Positions 19,720-33,897 of a DNA stretch of 33,915 nucleotides are shown here, in pieces. Origin of the DNA: a virus; the IMG/VR virus record IMGVR_UViG_3300032325_000396, positions 1-33,915 of that record. One strand, written 5' to 3'. Numbering within the stretch: position 1 is the stretch's first letter; every line of letters begins with the position of its first letter. Under the pieces are notes generated by a model. That model was not told the origin of the DNA and searched no databases. It saw nothing but the letters and a program-made list of their open reading frames with translations. The position numbers and the translations under genes were made by a program.

Positions 19720-20316
19720 ATGAGCGACGAATTAAATGGAGCAGTTGAAGAGGCTATTGAATTAGCCCAGGAGGCTCAGTCCAAAAAGGTATTTAACCTT
19801 TCGGACGCAATCAAGGGTAGAGCTTACCCACAAAAAGACACAGTTGTTTATCTGGACGACGAAAGCGCAATGAAGCTTGTCGAGCTAGATGAGCAGATGT
19901 CCTACACTACAGACCCAGCCGAGCTTAAAAAGCTAGAGGCTGAGGCGCAAAAACTATCTAAGTCAATCAAAGACTCGGCACTTACCTTTAAGATGCGTGG
20001 CGTAAGCCAGGATGCTATCGAGCTTGTGCTAAAGCAGCTTAATGAGAAGTACAAAGTCAAGGGCTCAGCTGGCACAGAGAACCCTGAGTGGATGAAGGAC
20101 TACATCACAACTCTAGTTGGCATGAACATTATCTCCGTAGTTGACGCTTCTGGTTCTGCAGACGAGGCAACTTACGATTTTGAAAAGACCGAAGAGATCC
20201 GCAGAAACATTCCGGCTGCTGAGTGGGGCAAGCTAGTAGAGATGATGCAGAAGCTTACACTTGCCGGTGGCTACTTTGAGCAACTTACGGATGCAGGTTT
20301 TTTACAGAAGTCCTAA
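19720..20316 (+). CDS. Tail assembly chaperone, upstream (G-type) product
   Basis: A 198-residue protein with an AGAAAGGCGC ribosome site. It is charged and helical, with a central K-L-E-x-E-A-Q-K-L-S-K coiled stretch and an AAEWGKLVEMMQKLTLAGGY segment near the end, as in actinophage tail assembly chaperones lying between tail tube and tape measure genes. These bind the tape measure protein until the tube has assembled. It contains a slippery T_TTT_TTA four codons before its stop, allowing a longer product. Confidence 0.85.
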   Translation: MSDELNGAVEEAIELAQEAQSKKVFNLSDAIKGRAYPQKDTVVYLDDESAMKLVELDEQMSYTTDPAELKKLEAEAQKLSKSIKDSALTFKMRGVSQDAIELVLKQLNEKYKVKGSAGTENPEWMKDYITTLVGMNIISVVDASGSADEATYDFEKTEEIRRNIPAAEWGKLVEMMQKLTLAGGYFEQLTDAGFLQKS

Positions 20317-20781: not shown

Positions 20782-23700
20782 TTGGCAAACAAAGATGACT
20801 TAAGCGTCAATATTAATGTTGGGGTTAACCTCGACAAAGCCAGCGTTGATCAAGCAAAAGAAGAGCTAAAGTTTTTACTTGAGCTTGAGAAAGAGCTTGG
20901 CGTAGAGGGCGCTAAAAAGATCAAGGTGGGTGGATACTCAACCTCGGCATCACCAGACAGAACTGTCCGTAATAAAGCAGCAACCCAAATTGAAAAAATG
21001 GGTGGTGACTGGAGCGGCGTTGACATTGCCGAAAAAGCAAGCGTCGAACTAGCTAAAAGATTCAACGAAGCAGCCCAGGAACTTTCTAAAGCTTTTAAGA
21101 TAGACTTTATTCCAGACTTTGCAGCTTCTATTGGCGAAGCTGATTTTGCACTCCCTAAAGACTCAATGGCCGCAGACAAGATCACACAGGCAATTGAAGA
21201 CTTTGTAATGAACGCCGCTGGCGAAGTTACTGTAAGCCCGGCTATGTTCATGGCTGCAGCCGAAAAGGTAATGAAGAAAAACCCTGGCCTTGCTGTGCCA
21301 CGCGGTATGGATACTGTGAGCGGAATCATTAAACCAACTCCAGCTTTTGGAAATGTCGCAAACTACGATCAAAAACTATCAGAAGAGTTTAATCAGTTTA
21401 TTACACAAGTTGTTGGAGATAACCCAGCAGCTGCAACTAAGGTCTCTGACTTCCTAATTTCCAAACTAAAAGTTTTAATGTCTGGAATTATTGACGATGC
21501 ACAAAAGGCCAGAGAAGATGTATTTAGGTCATTGGGTGTTGCCGAAGGAGACGATGCCGCTGAGAACGTAGTTCGCTATGCTGACGATGCCGCAAGAAGG
21601 GCTGTTGCAATTGGTGAGCAAATGCGTGGCCTGCAAGCAGGAACAACCGCAATGTTTGGGCCTGGGCTTTTGCCAGAAAAATTTCAATCAAAACCAGGGG
21701 CAGTATCTGACCCTCAGCAATTACTAAATGTTCTTATCGGAGAATACTCAGATGAAGTAACTGGGGCTATCATGGCAGCTGTGCCTGACCCATCAAAGGT
21801 TGCAGAGCCAATAGCACAGATTCTAATGAACCCCTATATTCTTGGCGATAAGTTTGCTACTGGATATCAGGATGAGATTAACAAAGCACTCAAGAGAAGA
21901 GCTCCTGCAGTTGCAGAAGTAGCAGCTCCTGTAGTAGCGGCTCGTGGTGGTGGAGCTAATAATCCAGACATTAACTTGCTTCGCAAATATCTTACCGACC
22001 AAAAGGCACTTGTAGAAGCCCAGGGTAAAACCTTTATGGCTGGACTTGACACTGAATTTAACTCGCAGATTGATGAAAAGCTAACTGAGCTTGGATTAGT
22101 AATTGAAGATGGCAGCGGCAAGTTTGTAGAGATCTTTAAGTTCTTGCAGCTTCCGGGAGATCTTGGCGCTATGGAGCAGGGATGGCAAAATCTTCCAAAG
22201 CGTATACAGGGAACTCAGGCTAAAGATGCCGCCGACCTATTAAAACGCGGACAGCTTCTTGGGATTCCAAAAGAAAACATTGGTGTGCCAGATGACTCAG
22301 AAGCAAACTTCCTGCAGTATCGGGAAAAGATTTCTAAGCTTATTGACATACTTAACCTTCTTAGCGAACTTGGAATTAGCTTAACCGGAAGCAACTTCCA
22401 GGCTGCCGAAGCGGCAAATATTAAAAAAGCTATTGGCTACATTAACTCAAAGTCTACCGGGATGGGTCTTGAGCCACTCGGAGTACCAGATCTTGCAAAT
22501 GTATTTGACCCAGCAACTCTTGCAAAGAAACTATCGCCAGGATCTTCTGAGCTTGCAAGAATTTTTGATTCACCAGAAGCCAAGAATGGAATCTCTGGTG
22601 CACTAGGCAATTTAATTAAAAACATTGCTCAGCAATTTCCGGACTTTATTGCCAGATACTCTGACCAGTTTAAGATGTCCGAAGGCGACAGAACTTTTGA
22701 ATACAAAGCTGCCGGTGGATCTGCTCAGGCACACTTTGCACTAACTGACGCTGCGGCCAGCCTTATCGTAAAAGACTTTGTAGAAGAGTTTGGTGACAAT
22801 GCCGCAACTCTTCTTGTGCCGATTGCAAAAAATTTAAACACCAAGGTCCAAGCGGCTGCTGGTGGTTCAGGTGGAAACAAACCACCTAGCACACCGATTG
22901 CATCTGCAGACAAGCCGAGCGAAGATCCTATGGCTAACAGAGCAGCCTCTTCACTGCAGCAGCTTTTGCTCGTTGGACAGAAGTATCAAAGTGCAATCGC
23001 TGGGCTTACAGAAGCTGAGCGGATTAAAGTTGAGCAGAGACTAAAGGTACTGCAAAGCAGCAGAGAGCAAGCAGAATTACTAGGAGAGATTGCCGAGCTT
23101 GAAAAGAAGCGTTCAGAAATTCTTGCAGAAGCGGCTGAGGTTAGTGCAGGGTCTTCTAAATTTGCAAGAGCTAGGATTGTTCTAGGAGATGCTGGTCCAG
23201 AAGGCCCGCTCACTCAGGGCGATACAGCGGCAGCTAAGAGATATCAACAACAAACTATAGCTGCTACTAAGCTGGGCACGGCAATTGCAGAGCTTACAAT
23301 AGCTGGTCAAAAGCGTGAGCGACAGGTAATAAGTTCTGTAAAAGAAGAAGCTCGTTACAAGCAGGTTAGCGAAGCTCTTGTTCAAAATATGCGTAAAGAA
23401 ATTGATACAACTTACGAGAACGCTCAAGCCGGAAAACAAGCTACTGCACAAATTAAAAACCAAATGCAAGAGCAGGTTAATGCTCAAAAGGCTGTGCAAA
23501 GACAAACACAGAGCCTGATGAATACTTGGGTTACATCCCGTTATGCCCTATACGACATTGGTAACTTCTATCAGAATGTTGCACAAAATCTAATTAGGGT
23601 TTCTCGTCAAATCTTTGATACTACAAGATCTTACAGAAACTTTGAGACCGCTTTTACTTCGGTTGAACGTGCAATGCAGCTTAGCCAAGAGGGTGCTGTA

Positions 23701-26700
23701 GATCTAAGAAATCAGTTTATTAAATTATCCGAAACTATTCCAGTATCATTTGAAGAGATCTCCCGAATTGCAACTCTTGGTGCTCAGATGGGAATTGCAG
23801 CAGATGGTATTGTGGGCTTTACCAAAACCATTGCAGAGTTCTCATCTATTACTGGGATCAGTGCCGAAACAGTAGCCCAGCAGTTTGGTAGAATTGCAGA
23901 ACTTGCCGACGTAGATCCAACTGAGTTTAATAACCTGGGTTCAGCCGTGGCATTTGCTGGTGTAAACGCAGTTGCTACTGAGTCTGAAATCCTTACACTT
24001 TCACAAAGCATCGCAGCTGTTTCAAATCAAGTTGGAATTACAGCCCCTGAGATTGTTGGTCTTGGAACCGCACTTGCTTCGGTAGGTATTCCTGCCGAGC
24101 AGGCTCGTGGTGTATTTACCCGTGTGTTTGCAGACATTGATAGAGCCGCAAGTTTGGGCGGAGAAAGCCTTCAGGCGCTTTCTCAAATAACCGGACTTAG
24201 TGCTGAAAAAATCTCGTCAAGCTGGGGACAAGAAGGTGCTGCAAACGAAGTCTTTATTGCATTGCTTAAAGGTCTAAATGCTTCTGAAAATCTAACTGCT
24301 GCTTTTGACAAACTAAACATTGTTGAAACTCGTGAGATTAACACACTCACTCGTCTTGCAAAAAACATGGATGTTGTAATGCAGGCATTAGATGACTCTG
24401 GTATGTCATTTGAGTCTGCAACTTTTTTGAGTGAATCTTTTGATAAAACAGTGGATAACTTAGACTCAAAGCTAACCCTCCTAAGAACTAACTTTGACTC
24501 ATTAACTGCATCTTTGATGTCATCCTTTGGACCAGCCCTAGGATTTGCTGCTGATTTACTTTCTCAAATCTTTAGGTTCTTAAAGGGAGCAGAAGATTCG
24601 TTATTGTTCCGTCTTGGATTACCGGTCACTGGTGCAGTAATAGCACTTGGTGCAGGTGCTGCTCTAACCGCTGCTGGAATTGCAAAACTTACAGCTCAAC
24701 TTTACGCATTTAGAGTTGCGCAAATCAACGCTGCAAATGCACCTACTGCAGTTGATGGAACACTTAGACAAGTTAAAGCGCTCCTTGGTCTAAACTCTGG
24801 ATTAATTGAGATACGTGAAAATGTTTCGGGAGTTAACGAAAGAGGCTTGGTAGAGCCAGTAAACTTTAGGGGCTTATTTACTAGCGTAAAGAAGCAGCAG
24901 CAGGAATTACTTAATCTAAAAAACATTTATATGTCTGTAGGGGATGTTGCTAGGCAGACAATGGATGCAAAGTCTGCCGAAGCTCTTGGCGATGTTAGAC
25001 TTGCAAGACTTGAGGCTGATGCAATTAATAATGCATTAATTTCAAAAAGATTAGAAATAGAAGCTTTGGAAAGAAGCGCAGATCCAGCAGATCTTGCACG
25101 TGCGGCTGCTATGCGAACTGCCTACTCCCAAGCTTACATAGTTTCAGTAGAAGGCGAAATTAGAGTTCTTACTCGCCTAGAGCTTGAAGAGCAAAAGGGT
25201 GTAATAGCATCAAGTAATATGAGCGCAGCAAAAAAGAGGGAAGCTCTGGCTCGCTTAGAAAATGCCACTGCAATAAACTTAGAAACCAAATCTGCTTCAC
25301 AAGCTTTTACCAGCATTGCTGGTAAGGTTACTGGTTTCTTGGGAGTCGCGGCATTAATTGCTAGCTTAATCCCAACTGTGCTTGCATTGTTCGATGCATT
25401 TAAAAACCTTAATAAGATTGACCTAACTGAATCCGGTGGTGGAATAGAGTCTCTTCGTGAGGCAATCCTAAAGGACACTCAAGCCGTAGAAGACGGCACA
25501 ATGAAGGCAATTGCAACTGCAAGAGTAGAGTACAAAACCTACAAGACAGTTACTAACGAAGCTGCTAAATCTATTTACAATTTAGTTTCAGCAAATGGAT
25601 CTGCATCTGGTGCGATTAAAACAGCAACAGAAGATGTTAAGGGTCAGAATGTAGCAATTGCTGACAACACTAAAGAGTGGATTGCAAATGCTATTATGCG
25701 AAATGAAAAGTTGCAAGAGTGGGATTTTGGACAAATTCAAGACACTATGTATAGCCTTGGTTTGGACTTTGAACAAGTAATTGCTGATATGGTTTCACAG
25801 TCTAAAGACGCAAAGATTAACCCACTTAAGGGTGTGGACGCAGAAATCTCAAGAGTAAGAAATGAGATAACAGCACTTGTAAGAGGTGAGACTTTAGGTA
25901 CAGTTGGCTCAGCTAAGATCCAAGAAAGATTAGGACTACAAGAAACTTTAAAGGGATTAGAAAATACAAAGTCATTACTTCTTGCTGTTGGAGATAGCAT
26001 TAAGCAAGCGTTTTCTGAAACAGCGCTTTGGGGTGCAATTAAAGGTGCACTTGGTTTAGAAGGTGCAGAAAATGCAATTACAAAACTAATTGATAAATAC
26101 AAAGATGCAATGGAAAGCGGCAAAGGCTTAAAGAAGATCTTTAATGAAGTTAAGGTTGCTGCTATTCAACTTACCGGGGCAACCGGAAAAGACCTTTTAA
26201 AGATTCAAAGTGCCGAAAGCCTTCAGGGGCTAAGAGATGTTATTGCTGGAATGCTTACCGCAGCTAAGGCGGCATCCACACTAGAGCTTAGAACTGTAAA
26301 GGCAAGCGCTGCACTGATTGCACTGAAGGCTGCTGACAAACTTGAAATTGAAAGTCTTGAAGATGCACTAGCTTCTATAGATGCACTTCTTCTTGGACTT
26401 AAGACTGGAATTGATGGAGTTGGCGGAGCGGCAGAGTCTGCGGCTGACAAGCTTGGAAGATTGCTCAGTGAAGCTAATAGTGGAATTCAAGGAGTGCTAG
26501 ATCTCAGGGGTGCAATTAGGTCCCTTGGCAAGAGTATGGCTGAAAGCAAGGACTTTAGTTTAGACACAGACCTTGGTGCCGCAAACATAAACTCTGTGCT
26601 TTCTGTAATTGAGTCTATTGGAGCTAAGGCTGGCGGAAACTTTAAGCAGGCTGAAAGAAATCTAAACATCTTTAAGCTTACCCTTTCTGACATGGGTGCT

Positions 26701-28101
26701 CCTCAAAGGGCAATTGACCTAGTTAACAATGCAATCGCTAAACTTGGCGGATCAACTAATCTAACTAAAAAGCAAGCAGAAGCTTTAAGAAAACAATTTG
26801 CTGCAATCTTTGGAACTTTTAAAACAAACTTTCAGGCTGGTGCCAATGAAATTAATAACGTAGAAAATAAGATTAGAAGCCTTACTGACTTTGTAAGCGA
26901 TCTTCGCAGCGTATTACAGTCAGCATTTGAGGTCCGCTACGGATCTCAGACTGGACTGGATGCAATAACCAGCGCTTGGTCTAACCTAACGCAAGCAGCT
27001 AAGGATGCAGAAAAAGCAGTTAAGTCTGCCAACGATGAAATCAACCAGTCGATGGCTGACAAAACTGTCCTACAGTACCAGCTCTCAGTAGCACAAAGAT
27101 ACAATGACGAGAAGCGAAGTGCAGTAATCCGCGCCAAGCTAGCAAAGCTTGACCAGCAGATTGTGGATCAACAACAACAACTTGCAGATGCAAATACTGC
27201 AAACGATAAGTCACTTACTGGTAACACTAAGTCTGCAATTGACAACAGAGCTAAGGTTAGAGATCTTGTAACTCAATACAACTCTTACCTACTATCGCTT
27301 GCAAACACAAATATGAGCTCTACTGACCTTGCTGTTAAGGCAAAGGAGCTAGAGGCAGACTTCCTAGCTCAGGGTCTTGCACTTGGTTATGCAGAAGCTG
27401 AGCTAAAAACTTACACTCAAGCTTTTGCCGGAGACTTTACTGCAGTACTAGCGGGTGTTCCTAGAGACATTACTATTACAGTCAACACCGATCCTGCACT
27501 TCGTGCAATCGAGGAGTTTGCAGCCAAAGCAAGAGAAGTACTTTCAACTATTGTTGCTCCGCTTGCTGCTATCAAACCTGGTGCAGCCGAAATTACCGAC
27601 GAAGAAAAAAGATATGCAAACTTATTTAGAACTGGCGAAGCAAACAAACAGGCTGGTCCAGATATTAAGGGTAGGCCAGGGGAAGTTGTTAAGGGACCAA
27701 AGGGCACAACCTGGGCTTGGGATAGTAAGAGTAAAGAGTGGGACAGGGTCGCTAAAAAGGCTATGGGCGGATATGTCAGTGGACCTGGAGGACCAACCTC
27801 TGACTCTATTCCAGCGATGCTTTCAAACGGTGAGTATGTAATTAACTCCAGATCAGTTGGTGCTTACGGTCTAGACTTTATGAATGCACTAAATCAGCAA
27901 CGCGTTGGCTTTGCTCCGACACAGGGATCATTTAACGGTGGGTCTTCTGGCGGGTCTCAAATGGTATACTTGAGCCCAGAGGACAGGGCTCTACTAAGAG
28001 CTGCGGTTGACAGACCTATTGCACTGTACACCGAAAATGCCAAGATTGCTCAATCTGCTAATGCTGGAAATGTGCTCCTAGCACAGAGAGGTACTAACTA
28101 A
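20782..28101 (+). CDS. Tape measure protein (2439 residues)
   Basis: It starts at TTG (20782) after GGCGGAG. N-terminal residues 1-378 are helical with no known domain. Residues about 394-690, between flexible linkers, look like a DEDDh exonuclease fold (separate entry). Residues about 720-930 are coiled coil. About 950-1270 match the conserved tape measure core (SEILTLSQSIAAVSNQVGIT, then AGIPAEQARG-like GIPAEQARGVF). Hydrophobic segments at about 1278-1305 and 1514-1540 may cross the membrane during DNA entry. Long helices follow. Near the end, GGPTSDSIPAMLSNGEYV is the signature C-terminus of tape measure proteins. It sets tail length, here about 360 nm by 1.5 Angstrom per residue, and helps DNA ejection. 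Confidence 0.95.
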   Translation: MANKDDLSVNINVGVNLDKASVDQAKEELKFLLELEKELGVEGAKKIKVGGYSTSASPDRTVRNKAATQIEKMGGDWSGVDIAEKASVELAKRFNEAAQELSKAFKIDFIPDFAASIGEADFALPKDSMAADKITQAIEDFVMNAAGEVTVSPAMFMAAAEKVMKKNPGLAVPRGMDTVSGIIKPTPAFGNVANYDQKLSEEFNQFITQVVGDNPAAATKVSDFLISKLKVLMSGIIDDAQKAREDVFRSLGVAEGDDAAENVVRYADDAARRAVAIGEQMRGLQAGTTAMFGPGLLPEKFQSKPGAVSDPQQLLNVLIGEYSDEVTGAIMAAVPDPSKVAEPIAQILMNPYILGDKFATGYQDEINKALKRRAPAVAEVAAPVVAARGGGANNPDINLLRKYLTDQKALVEAQGKTFMAGLDTEFNSQIDEKLTELGLVIEDGSGKFVEIFKFLQLPGDLGAMEQGWQNLPKRIQGTQAKDAADLLKRGQLLGIPKENIGVPDDSEANFLQYREKISKLIDILNLLSELGISLTGSNFQAAEAANIKKAIGYINSKSTGMGLEPLGVPDLANVFDPATLAKKLSPGSSELARIFDSPEAKNGISGALGNLIKNIAQQFPDFIARYSDQFKMSEGDRTFEYKAAGGSAQAHFALTDAAASLIVKDFVEEFGDNAATLLVPIAKNLNTKVQAAAGGSGGNKPPSTPIASADKPSEDPMANRAASSLQQLLLVGQKYQSAIAGLTEAERIKVEQRLKVLQSSREQAELLGEIAELEKKRSEILAEAAEVSAGSSKFARARIVLGDAGPEGPLTQGDTAAAKRYQQQTIAATKLGTAIAELTIAGQKRERQVISSVKEEARYKQVSEALVQNMRKEIDTTYENAQAGKQATAQIKNQMQEQVNAQKAVQRQTQSLMNTWVTSRYALYDIGNFYQNVAQNLIRVSRQIFDTTRSYRNFETAFTSVERAMQLSQEGAVDLRNQFIKLSETIPVSFEEISRIATLGAQMGIAADGIVGFTKTIAEFSSITGISAETVAQQFGRIAELADVDPTEFNNLGSAVAFAGVNAVATESEILTLSQSIAAVSNQVGITAPEIVGLGTALASVGIPAEQARGVFTRVFADIDRAASLGGESLQALSQITGLSAEKISSSWGQEGAANEVFIALLKGLNASENLTAAFDKLNIVETREINTLTRLAKNMDVVMQALDDSGMSFESATFLSESFDKTVDNLDSKLTLLRTNFDSLTASLMSSFGPALGFAADLLSQIFRFLKGAEDSLLFRLGLPVTGAVIALGAGAALTAAGIAKLTAQLYAFRVAQINAANAPTAVDGTLRQVKALLGLNSGLIEIRENVSGVNERGLVEPVNFRGLFTSVKKQQQELLNLKNIYMSVGDVARQTMDAKSAEALGDVRLARLEADAINNALISKRLEIEALERSADPADLARAAAMRTAYSQAYIVSVEGEIRVLTRLELEEQKGVIASSNMSAAKKREALARLENATAINLETKSASQAFTSIAGKVTGFLGVAALIASLIPTVLALFDAFKNLNKIDLTESGGGIESLREAILKDTQAVEDGTMKAIATARVEYKTYKTVTNEAAKSIYNLVSANGSASGAIKTATEDVKGQNVAIADNTKEWIANAIMRNEKLQEWDFGQIQDTMYSLGLDFEQVIADMVSQSKDAKINPLKGVDAEISRVRNEITALVRGETLGTVGSAKIQERLGLQETLKGLENTKSLLLAVGDSIKQAFSETALWGAIKGALGLEGAENAITKLIDKYKDAMESGKGLKKIFNEVKVAAIQLTGATGKDLLKIQSAESLQGLRDVIAGMLTAAKAASTLELRTVKASAALIALKAADKLEIESLEDALASIDALLLGLKTGIDGVGGAAESAADKLGRLLSEANSGIQGVLDLRGAIRSLGKSMAESKDFSLDTDLGAANINSVLSVIESIGAKAGGNFKQAERNLNIFKLTLSDMGAPQRAIDLVNNAIAKLGGSTNLTKKQAEALRKQFAAIFGTFKTNFQAGANEINNVENKIRSLTDFVSDLRSVLQSAFEVRYGSQTGLDAITSAWSNLTQAAKDAEKAVKSANDEINQSMADKTVLQYQLSVAQRYNDEKRSAVIRAKLAKLDQQIVDQQQQLADANTANDKSLTGNTKSAIDNRAKVRDLVTQYNSYLLSLANTNMSSTDLAVKAKELEADFLAQGLALGYAEAELKTYTQAFAGDFTAVLAGVPRDITITVNTDPALRAIEEFAAKAREVLSTIVAPLAAIKPGAAEITDEEKRYANLFRTGEANKQAGPDIKGRPGEVVKGPKGTTWAWDSKSKEWDRVAKKAMGGYVSGPGGPTSDSIPAMLSNGEYVINSRSVGAYGLDFMNALNQQRVGFAPTQGSFNGGSSGGSQMVYLSPEDRALLRAAVDRPIALYTENAKIAQSANAGNVLLAQRGTN
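21961..22851 (+). other. DnaQ-like (DEDDh) exonuclease-type domain inside tape measure
   Basis: Tape measure residues 394-690. Exo I-like: FMAGLDTEFN with Asp423 and Glu425, then LTELGLVIEDGSGKFVE, the usual strand pair. Exo II-like: ISLTGSNFQAAEAANIKKA at about 532-549 fits the L-V-G-H-N-x-x-F-D pattern, but with Ser for His and no Asp; Glu543 is one place off. A VFDPATLAKKLSPGSSELARI stretch matches the D-T-L-x-L-A-R-x-L-x-P-G element between Exo II and III. Exo III-like: AHFALTDAAAS with His651 and Asp656, an exact H-x-A-x-x-D. Linkers at 378-393 (Ala/Val/Gly) and 691-715 (Gly/Pro/Ser) bracket the block. The order is right; loss of the Exo II acid suggests impaired or altered catalysis. 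Confidence 0.55.
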
Positions 28102-32868: not shown

Positions 32869-32905
32869 AAACCCCCGGCATTTCTGCTGGGGGTTTTAGT
32901 TTTTA
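32869..32905. terminator. Bidirectional terminator between convergent genes
   Basis: AAACCCCCGGCA (32869-32880) pairs with TGCTGGGGGTTT (32885-32896) with one G-U wobble around a four-base loop. TTTTAGTTTTT follows on the plus strand, and a T-rich TTTAGTCTTG follows on the minus strand. It ends the lysis operon and, overlapping the TAA at 32903, also the leftward gene. Confidence 0.9.
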
Positions 32906-33862
32906 ATAGGTCTTCATTTTTATTTTCTTTTTCTTTTTAGCTTCATCAAGATCAATGCTATTAACCCAAGACTTGCCTGCGTCTCCACCCCAAGCGTCCC
33001 ACGCAACCCTGCCTGGACTTGGGTAATTTTTTTCACCAGCAAAGAATCCGTTTGCACGTCGGTCCACAGTGTGTCGTGCAAAGTAAGACCGCATTCGAGC
33101 TACAGTGTCACGGCCTACAGTGCCACCGGAAGCAAGCTGAGACGCTCTGCGTCTTCCTACTGCAGTAAATCCACCACCAGCTTTGCCATCTGCAATCCAC
33201 TTAAGTGCTCGCTTAGCTGCACTGCTTACTCCAGTAGGAACTTTATAAGTCTCTGCTTCTGCAAACTTATTTGACTCCGCTAGGCTTGCAATTTTTGTAA
33301 GCGTAGAAAATTTGTGTCCAACCTTAGTATCAGTTGCGGCCCATCCATCGCCTGAACGCCTCCAAAGAGTTATCAATGCAGCTGGATCTTCTTTGGTGCC
33401 CTTGATTGTAAAACTAGAACCAGGAACATTAATGCTTCCGTTTCTTTCGATCCTGGTAATCTTTCCTCGCGCTGTTCCGCCCGAGCTACCCCAACGCACA
33501 AAGTCGCCGGTCTTAAGAGCTCCGGAAGCTGCTTCCATCATCGGCATGCCAAGGTCTACAAGACCAGGAGGAATAATCGCCAACCTACAAATTCCCTCTT
33601 CTTCAACCTGTGCATCAATTGCAGAGCATCCAAAGCTCTCTTCGGTTTCGACATGGAATACACAGTTGCCACACTTGACACCAATTTCTTTGTCTTCATT
33701 TTCAGAGGGCGGTAAGTAGTTAGGGTAAACAGTGCTACCCTCTGAACCAAACTTACCAAACTGTCCTACGATTTCAATCATTGCATCGGCAAGGGCCTTT
33801 TCGTCCCCCGAGATGTCAGCGTAGAGCTCTTGGTCTACTTCTTTAAGCTTCTTAACAGTCAT
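32903..33862 (-). CDS. Three-domain protein: Cys4 cluster, Tudor-like barrel, conserved helical module
   Basis: A 319-residue protein, reading leftward. The ATG at 33862 is preferred because AGAAGGTA lies nine bases upstream; the ATG at 33886 lacks a ribosome site. Residues 60-95 hold C64-x2-C67-x11-C79-x12-C92 (CGNCVFH, EEEGICRL), like small Fe-S (HiPIP-type) or zinc sites. Residues 117-192 (GDFVRWGSSGGTARGKITRI, later DPAALITLW and VGHKFSTLTKI) match the Tudor-like barrel called HVA1/DUF2945. Residues 208-304 (VGRRRASQLASGG, RMRSYFARH, SPGRVAWDAWGGDAGKSW) are a module I have seen in phage head-gene proteins. The basic tail is KKKKKIKMKTY. Overall function unknown. Confidence 0.75.
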   Translation of the reverse strand: MTVKKLKEVDQELYADISGDEKALADAMIEIVGQFGKFGSEGSTVYPNYLPPSENEDKEIGVKCGNCVFHVETEESFGCSAIDAQVEEEGICRLAIIPPGLVDLGMPMMEAASGALKTGDFVRWGSSGGTARGKITRIERNGSINVPGSSFTIKGTKEDPAALITLWRRSGDGWAATDTKVGHKFSTLTKIASLAESNKFAEAETYKVPTGVSSAAKRALKWIADGKAGGGFTAVGRRRASQLASGGTVGRDTVARMRSYFARHTVDRRANGFFAGEKNYPSPGRVAWDAWGGDAGKSWVNSIDLDEAKKKKKIKMKTY

Positions 33863-33897
33863 AAAACTATACCTTCTTTTAGACATAAACTATGCCA

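Follow-up and report, generated by a model that had tools for sequence, protein, structure and literature searches.

The tape measure protein (TMP) encoded in the analysed stretch of viral DNA, a linear virus record of 33,915 bases with 45% GC (hereafter, the window), carries ahead of its conserved core a domain predicted to adopt the fold of DEDDh exonucleases. The identity of the domain, its fold class, its conserved residues, its single origin, and its presence or absence among related TMPs were all established computationally. The interpretation we prefer, namely that a DEDDh 3′–5′ exonuclease domain was acquired once by an ancestral TMP and is delivered by the virion as an early exonuclease, appears fairly probable to us, and in it the activity, the location in the virion, the delivery, and the substrate are inferred.

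The window contains a siphophage structural module with genes for the terminase, portal, protease, major capsid protein, fibres, and major tail protein, and, further along, two tail chaperone frames, the TMP, minor tail proteins, and an endolysin of the metallo-endopeptidase type. The similarity of the portal to those of Clavibacter and Microbacterium phages suggests that the host is probably an actinobacterium. The TMP is an open frame of 2439 aa on the + strand (20782–28101), as are all of its features described below. Its TTG start is supported by close relatives (subfamily A, see below), in which a TTG codon occupies the equivalent LA[DN] site. Since it possesses a TMP core domain (Pfam PhageMin_Tail, 3e-13; PHROG tape measure families, down to 3e-109) and follows the tail chaperones within the cluster of tail genes, it fulfils the criterion for a siphophage TMP. 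The N-terminal segment (residues 1–397, 20782–21972) has a TMP-like strand/helix N-terminus and no known domain; it is approximately 51% conserved with the TMP of L003, yet has no family match, and the N-terminal 386 residues used as a lone query found no relatives. At its end lies an Ala/Gly-rich linker (21913–21969; residues 378–393, AEVAAPVVAARGGGAN), which is followed by the DEDDh exonuclease-fold domain (construct of residues 398–686, 21973–22839) and a Gly/Pro/Ser linker (residues 691–715, 22852–22926). The conserved core (residues 930–1263, 23569–24570), which is 58–62% identical to those of the seven closest relatives, was used for the trees. A Kyte–Doolittle scan revealed two hydrophobic segments downstream of the core, the first of which (residues 1273–1304, 24598–24693) is a candidate membrane-spanning segment, while the second covers residues 1508–1541 (25303–25404).

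The initial annotation had proposed a DnaQ/RNase T-like exonuclease domain for the block between the two linkers, and structure prediction bore this out in that an RNase H-like DEDDh fold was obtained. The AlphaFold2 model of residues 398–686, built from eight sequences, had a mean pLDDT of 81.9 and a pTM of 0.84. Three strands, the first bearing the DTEF motif, are followed by a helical stretch, a short strand, a long helix beginning at E543, and a last helix with D656, which is directly preceded by H651, as in the DEDDh layout; D423 and E425 lie on strand 22–29 of the model and E543 on the helix that follows strand four. All nine Foldseek matches in the PDB below an E-value of 1e-3 were DEDDh enzymes, including DnaQ of S. 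thermophilus and RNase T (best 4e-5, probability 1.00), and the top matches in BFVD were likewise named DEDDh/DnaQ. ("TMP" in the PDB title of the S. thermophilus DnaQ stands for thymidine monophosphate, not for tape measure.) The TM-scores normalized to the query length were modest, 0.29–0.41 for this model and up to 0.47 for that of the sister subfamily B, because the domain has long insertions. On these models, residues 398–686 qualify as a separate domain of the DEDDh exonuclease fold, which is predicted rather than solved and whose active-site geometry was not measured.

All residues claimed from the sequence beforehand were found at their places, that is, both linkers, D423-T-E425 of Exo I (22048–22056), LTGSN (residues 534–538), ATLAKKLSPG, E543 at the acidic position of Exo II (22408–22410), and H651-F-A-L-T-D656 of Exo III (HxAxxD, 22732–22749). 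The block occurs in eight other TMPs, which together with the window form subfamily A and whose blocks are 23–31% identical to that of the window; the subfamily HMM matches residues 400–684 of the window TMP with an E-value of 1.3e-97, the window itself being in the training set. In the alignment of these nine sequences only 10 of 289 columns are invariant (D26, E28, E39, P61, G104, K119, G139, H254, A256, and D259), and the four residues D423, E425, H651, and D656, which had been named before any alignment was made, are all among them (hypergeometric p ~7e-7). The motifs of Exo I and Exo III are thus invariant in subfamily A, where domains compared pairwise are as little as 21–43% identical, and DxE and HxxxxD, with their D, E, H, and D, are kept in 16/16 distinct domain-bearing TMPs.

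The initial annotation had also regarded the Asp of Exo II as missing and Glu543 as one place off. The first part holds for the window, which has Glu instead of Asp, while the second does not: the acidic residue stands five positions after N538 throughout the clade (N-x4-[D/E]), a spacing from the Asn that exceeds that of DnaQ (N-x3-D) by one residue. This column is occupied by Asp in six and by Glu in three of the nine subfamily A members (the window, L006, and L007), and by Asp in 13 and Glu in three of all 16. As the relatives have Asp or Glu at a fixed column, Glu543 represents a family-level D/E exchange within a loop that is longer by one residue. Glu in place of Asp at Exo II lowers activity in many two-metal nucleases. 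The window's own copy might therefore be weaker than the Asp forms, its activity being inferred.

The remaining seven domain-bearing TMPs, subfamily B, are larger (~3,300–3,700 aa) and carry the domain likewise between the N-terminus and the core, in the L021 TMP, for example, at residues 1193–1481. Their motifs are those of the textbook (VALDIETTG, PLAIHNAGVSDLSAL, LLVETQ, and VAHDPTIDTAAT), one example reading ALDIETTG, IHNAGVSD, and AHDPTIDTAAT with an intact DEDDh set, and Asp is present at Exo II in 7/7. The subfamily B model (pLDDT 79.8, pTM 0.84) matched TREX1 and RNase T, and 23/23 of its Foldseek matches below 1e-3 were DEDDh enzymes. The hhalign comparison of subfamily B with a 28-sequence DnaQ/RNase_T profile gave an E-value of 8.7e-6 and aligned all motifs, with a one-residue gap exactly within the Exo II loop, whose longer spacing is common to both subfamilies. 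By sequence, A and B are joined only weakly (hhalign E 6e-4, probability 28%). The earlier doubt about activity is partly answered by these results, since the third carboxylate is kept as Asp or Glu and subfamily B possesses the five textbook catalytic residues.

The relationship to DnaQ was also detectable without structures. The block profile scored 23.0 against the same 28-sequence profile. None of 99 column shuffles reached this score (mean 11.2, maximum 16.6), and slices taken from the window TMP outside the block scored 9–17, which is shuffle-like or slightly above; subfamily B also exceeded every column shuffle. None of the named sequence libraries (Pfam, PHROGs, PDB, PF00929) identified the domain, nor did any curated HMM recognise it. 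At the curated cut-off of PF00929 (Pfam RNase_T), no match was found in the window or at the TMP of any of the 15 relatives, thus the domain is not filed in PF00929. The block as a single-sequence query had no match in Pfam or the PDB, and the profiles of the two subfamilies returned only noise against the PDB sequences. A match of the block to the PHROG "RNase H" (E 0.1) covered only the Exo I strand and was unusable, and L002, likewise brought up by the block as a single sequence, was discarded as a chance match in an unrelated TMP. Because the block alignment was too divergent for a degenerate-pattern scan, the relatives were collected via the TMP core.

The presence or absence of the domain, which the initial annotation had proposed to check in relatives, was determined by scanning the HMMs of both subfamilies over TMPs from viral contigs and eight from isolates. 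The domain was present in 16 TMPs and absent from 26 others, including all eight from isolates (Clavibacter CMP1, Clavibacter CN1A, Arthrobacter Molivia, Microbacterium Pioneer3, Curtobacterium Yappy, Streptomyces JustBecause, Stenotrophomonas Jojan60, and Pseudanabaena Pan2). The hosts of the nearest isolates are Microbacteriaceae and Arthrobacter. The same fusion in 16 distinct TMPs from independent contigs rules out an assembly artefact. In the core tree of the 42 TMPs, the 16 domain-bearing ones formed a single clade (support 96/91), which indicates one acquisition. The two groups are cleanly split by the start of the core, which lies at residue 930 or beyond in the domain-bearing TMPs (one contig being incomplete) versus at most 406 in the domain-less ones. 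No relatives were found by tblastn of either domain against 50,697 isolate phage records, and pattern and profile searches of GTDB genomes revealed no TMP of the domain-bearing clade, their sole yield being a distant TMP from an Actinomyces MAG.

Compared with the domain-less TMPs, the domain-bearing ones are extended by ~700 to 1,700 residues, always N-terminally to the core. So long an extension, with flexible linkers on both sides of the domain, could also mean that the producing cell is where the domain acts, ahead of tail assembly or in its course, with RNA or leftover host DNA as possible substrates, or that the domain is cleaved off the TMP before assembly, and TMPs are indeed often found fragmented (PMC11661146). 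Nevertheless, a late structural gene is a poor site for an enzyme that could have a gene of its own, and no protease site was identified; we therefore hold a role in the producing cell to be very improbable.

The domain is under purifying selection (dN/dS 0.19–0.28, with dS near saturation in most pairs). Like the other N-terminal parts, it diverges far more rapidly than the core, while its D, E, H, and D never change. As far as can be judged from sequences, fixed D/E/H/D residues combined with fast drift elsewhere match the picture of an enzyme that preserves its active site while its surface can vary freely or is driven to vary. In two pairs of TMPs, the cores were 96% and 87% identical (L122/L125 and L117/L118, respectively) versus 47% and 45% for the DEDDh domains, which may reflect an N-terminal module that either diverges rapidly or is exchanged.

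The fast evolution of the domain, its escape from the family HMMs, and the Glu at Exo II in three members would also be compatible with a co-opted fold that has lost catalysis and serves only nucleic-acid binding or a structural purpose. However, all 16 lineages keep the D, E, H, and D unchanged where most other positions vary, a purely structural role would not need the Exo III histidine, and the DEDDh set of subfamily B is intact. As the histidine and the carboxylates are invariant, a dead structural fold is less likely, and we consider an inactive domain improbable.

With regard to the delivered exonuclease that we favour, two published systems are informative. The N-termini of the phage 80-alpha TMPs are located at the neck, bound to the tail completion protein, which in turn touches the terminal phosphate at the 3′-end of the DNA (PMC11661146), and during genome injection by lambda, labelling placed TMPs at the inner membrane, where the host nuclease SNIPE makes contact with them (PMC13190303). 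If the TMP of the window is oriented as in 80-alpha, its exonuclease domain adjoins the leading genome end and leaves with the genome. Together, the neck position in 80-alpha and the inner-membrane TMPs of lambda favour a virion-delivered early 3′–5′ exonuclease. By this mechanism, the domain would have been gained once, in the ancestor of an uncultured siphophage clade, with the metal-binding residues and the catalytic histidine retained. Being part of the neck-proximal N-terminal extension, it would lie close to the leading end of the genome as packaged, would exit the tail together with it, and would digest 3′-ends of nucleic acids at or inside the cell membrane during genome entry, from which the phage may benefit by countering nucleic-acid-based defences of the host, or competitors. 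The travel with the DNA and the action on nucleic acid at entry, which the initial annotation had put forward, remain an inference, supported by the neck-proximal N-termini of the 80-alpha TMPs (PMC11661146). What speaks against delivery is that three copies of a folded 32-kDa domain would fit tightly in the tail lumen. The more far-reaching idea of a nuclease-armed tape measure, that is, that the phages of this clade inject an active exonuclease within the TMP at the leading genome end, which clears hostile nucleic acids or nucleotide signals at entry, is one to which we give slightly less than even credence.

The main rival of the delivered exonuclease is the handling of the DNA end within the virion, in which case the domain would sit at the neck and, as head and tail join or as the genome is ejected, grip and perhaps trim the phage's own DNA at its 3′-end, without any host targets. 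It draws on the same structure of 80-alpha, in which the TMP N-termini adjoin the DNA end, with its last 3′ phosphate in the grip of the tail completion protein (PMC11661146), and on the extension being N-terminal to the core in every case. However, most phages, including the isolates checked, do without the domain, and an active exonuclease beside the genome end would require restraint. Moreover, the domain diverges about as fast as the other variable parts of the TMP, unlike a part fitted to conserved neck proteins. We regard DNA-end handling as unlikely, although not negligible.

The enzyme domains known in TMPs serve the attack on the cell wall. TMPs with peptidoglycan hydrolase or transglycosylase domains (PMC10194240) are likewise fusions of an enzyme into the TMP, presumably aiding entry, whereas here the fold is that of a nucleic-acid enzyme and the placement is N-terminal and neck-proximal. 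The injected "polyvalent" multidomain proteins and other virion-delivered effectors (PMC7824862) are similar in the proposed pre-emption of host defence, but the polyvalent proteins are separate proteins, while in the present case the carrier is the ruler of tail length itself, a protein that also guides the DNA into the cell. With DnaQ (Pol III epsilon) and RNase T (PDB 8h2f/8h18, 3v9w), the domain shares the RNase H-like fold by model, the order of motifs, the DxE of Exo I followed by two antiparallel strands, and the HxAxxD of Exo III. It differs from them in its size (~290 versus 170–210 residues), in being built into a tape measure protein, in the Exo II loop longer by one residue, with Glu in the window, and in falling below PF00929 detection. 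TREX1, the best structural match of subfamily B, has similar ALDIETTG and HxxxxD motifs; however, it is a eukaryotic DNA exonuclease without TMP context and the sequence identity is low (14–17%). In the open-access literature, subscription papers being outside the scope, no precedent was found for a nuclease domain within a TMP; that no precedent of this architecture has been described rests on open-access text searches. A nucleic-acid-processing TMP domain with an active site kept across a deep clade would suggest that a TMP can carry an effector for the cytoplasm or the inner face of the membrane, and that the phages of the clade may supply, along with the genome, an enzyme that trims DNA or RNA. 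It would open to testing the long-standing question of how deeply the TMP penetrates the cell and which function its neck-proximal end has, and it complements the recent evidence that the host nuclease SNIPE is placed at the same spot and cuts entering phage DNA.

Some further observations concern other genes. Four subfamily A phages encode a separate RNase H-like/DEDD protein of ~245 aa with the motif DLETRPN, which scores above the PF00929 cut-off and lies away from the TMP (L063–L066, on the contigs of L003, L004, L006, and L005, respectively); it is not the TMP domain, and this gene was not found in the window. At the window end, a 327-aa gene on the − strand (32903–33886) has a C-terminal match to PHROG 2859, a family of unknown function, and a gene resembling it adjoins the RNase H-like gene at L063. 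In the first tail chaperone frame of the window (19720–20316), a slippery heptamer, T TTT TTA (20298–20304), is located in frame close to the 3′-end, and the −1 frame, which runs on to 20747, shows a match to the C-terminal half of the first frame's PHROG, thus a programmed −1 frameshift is likely in the tail chaperones.
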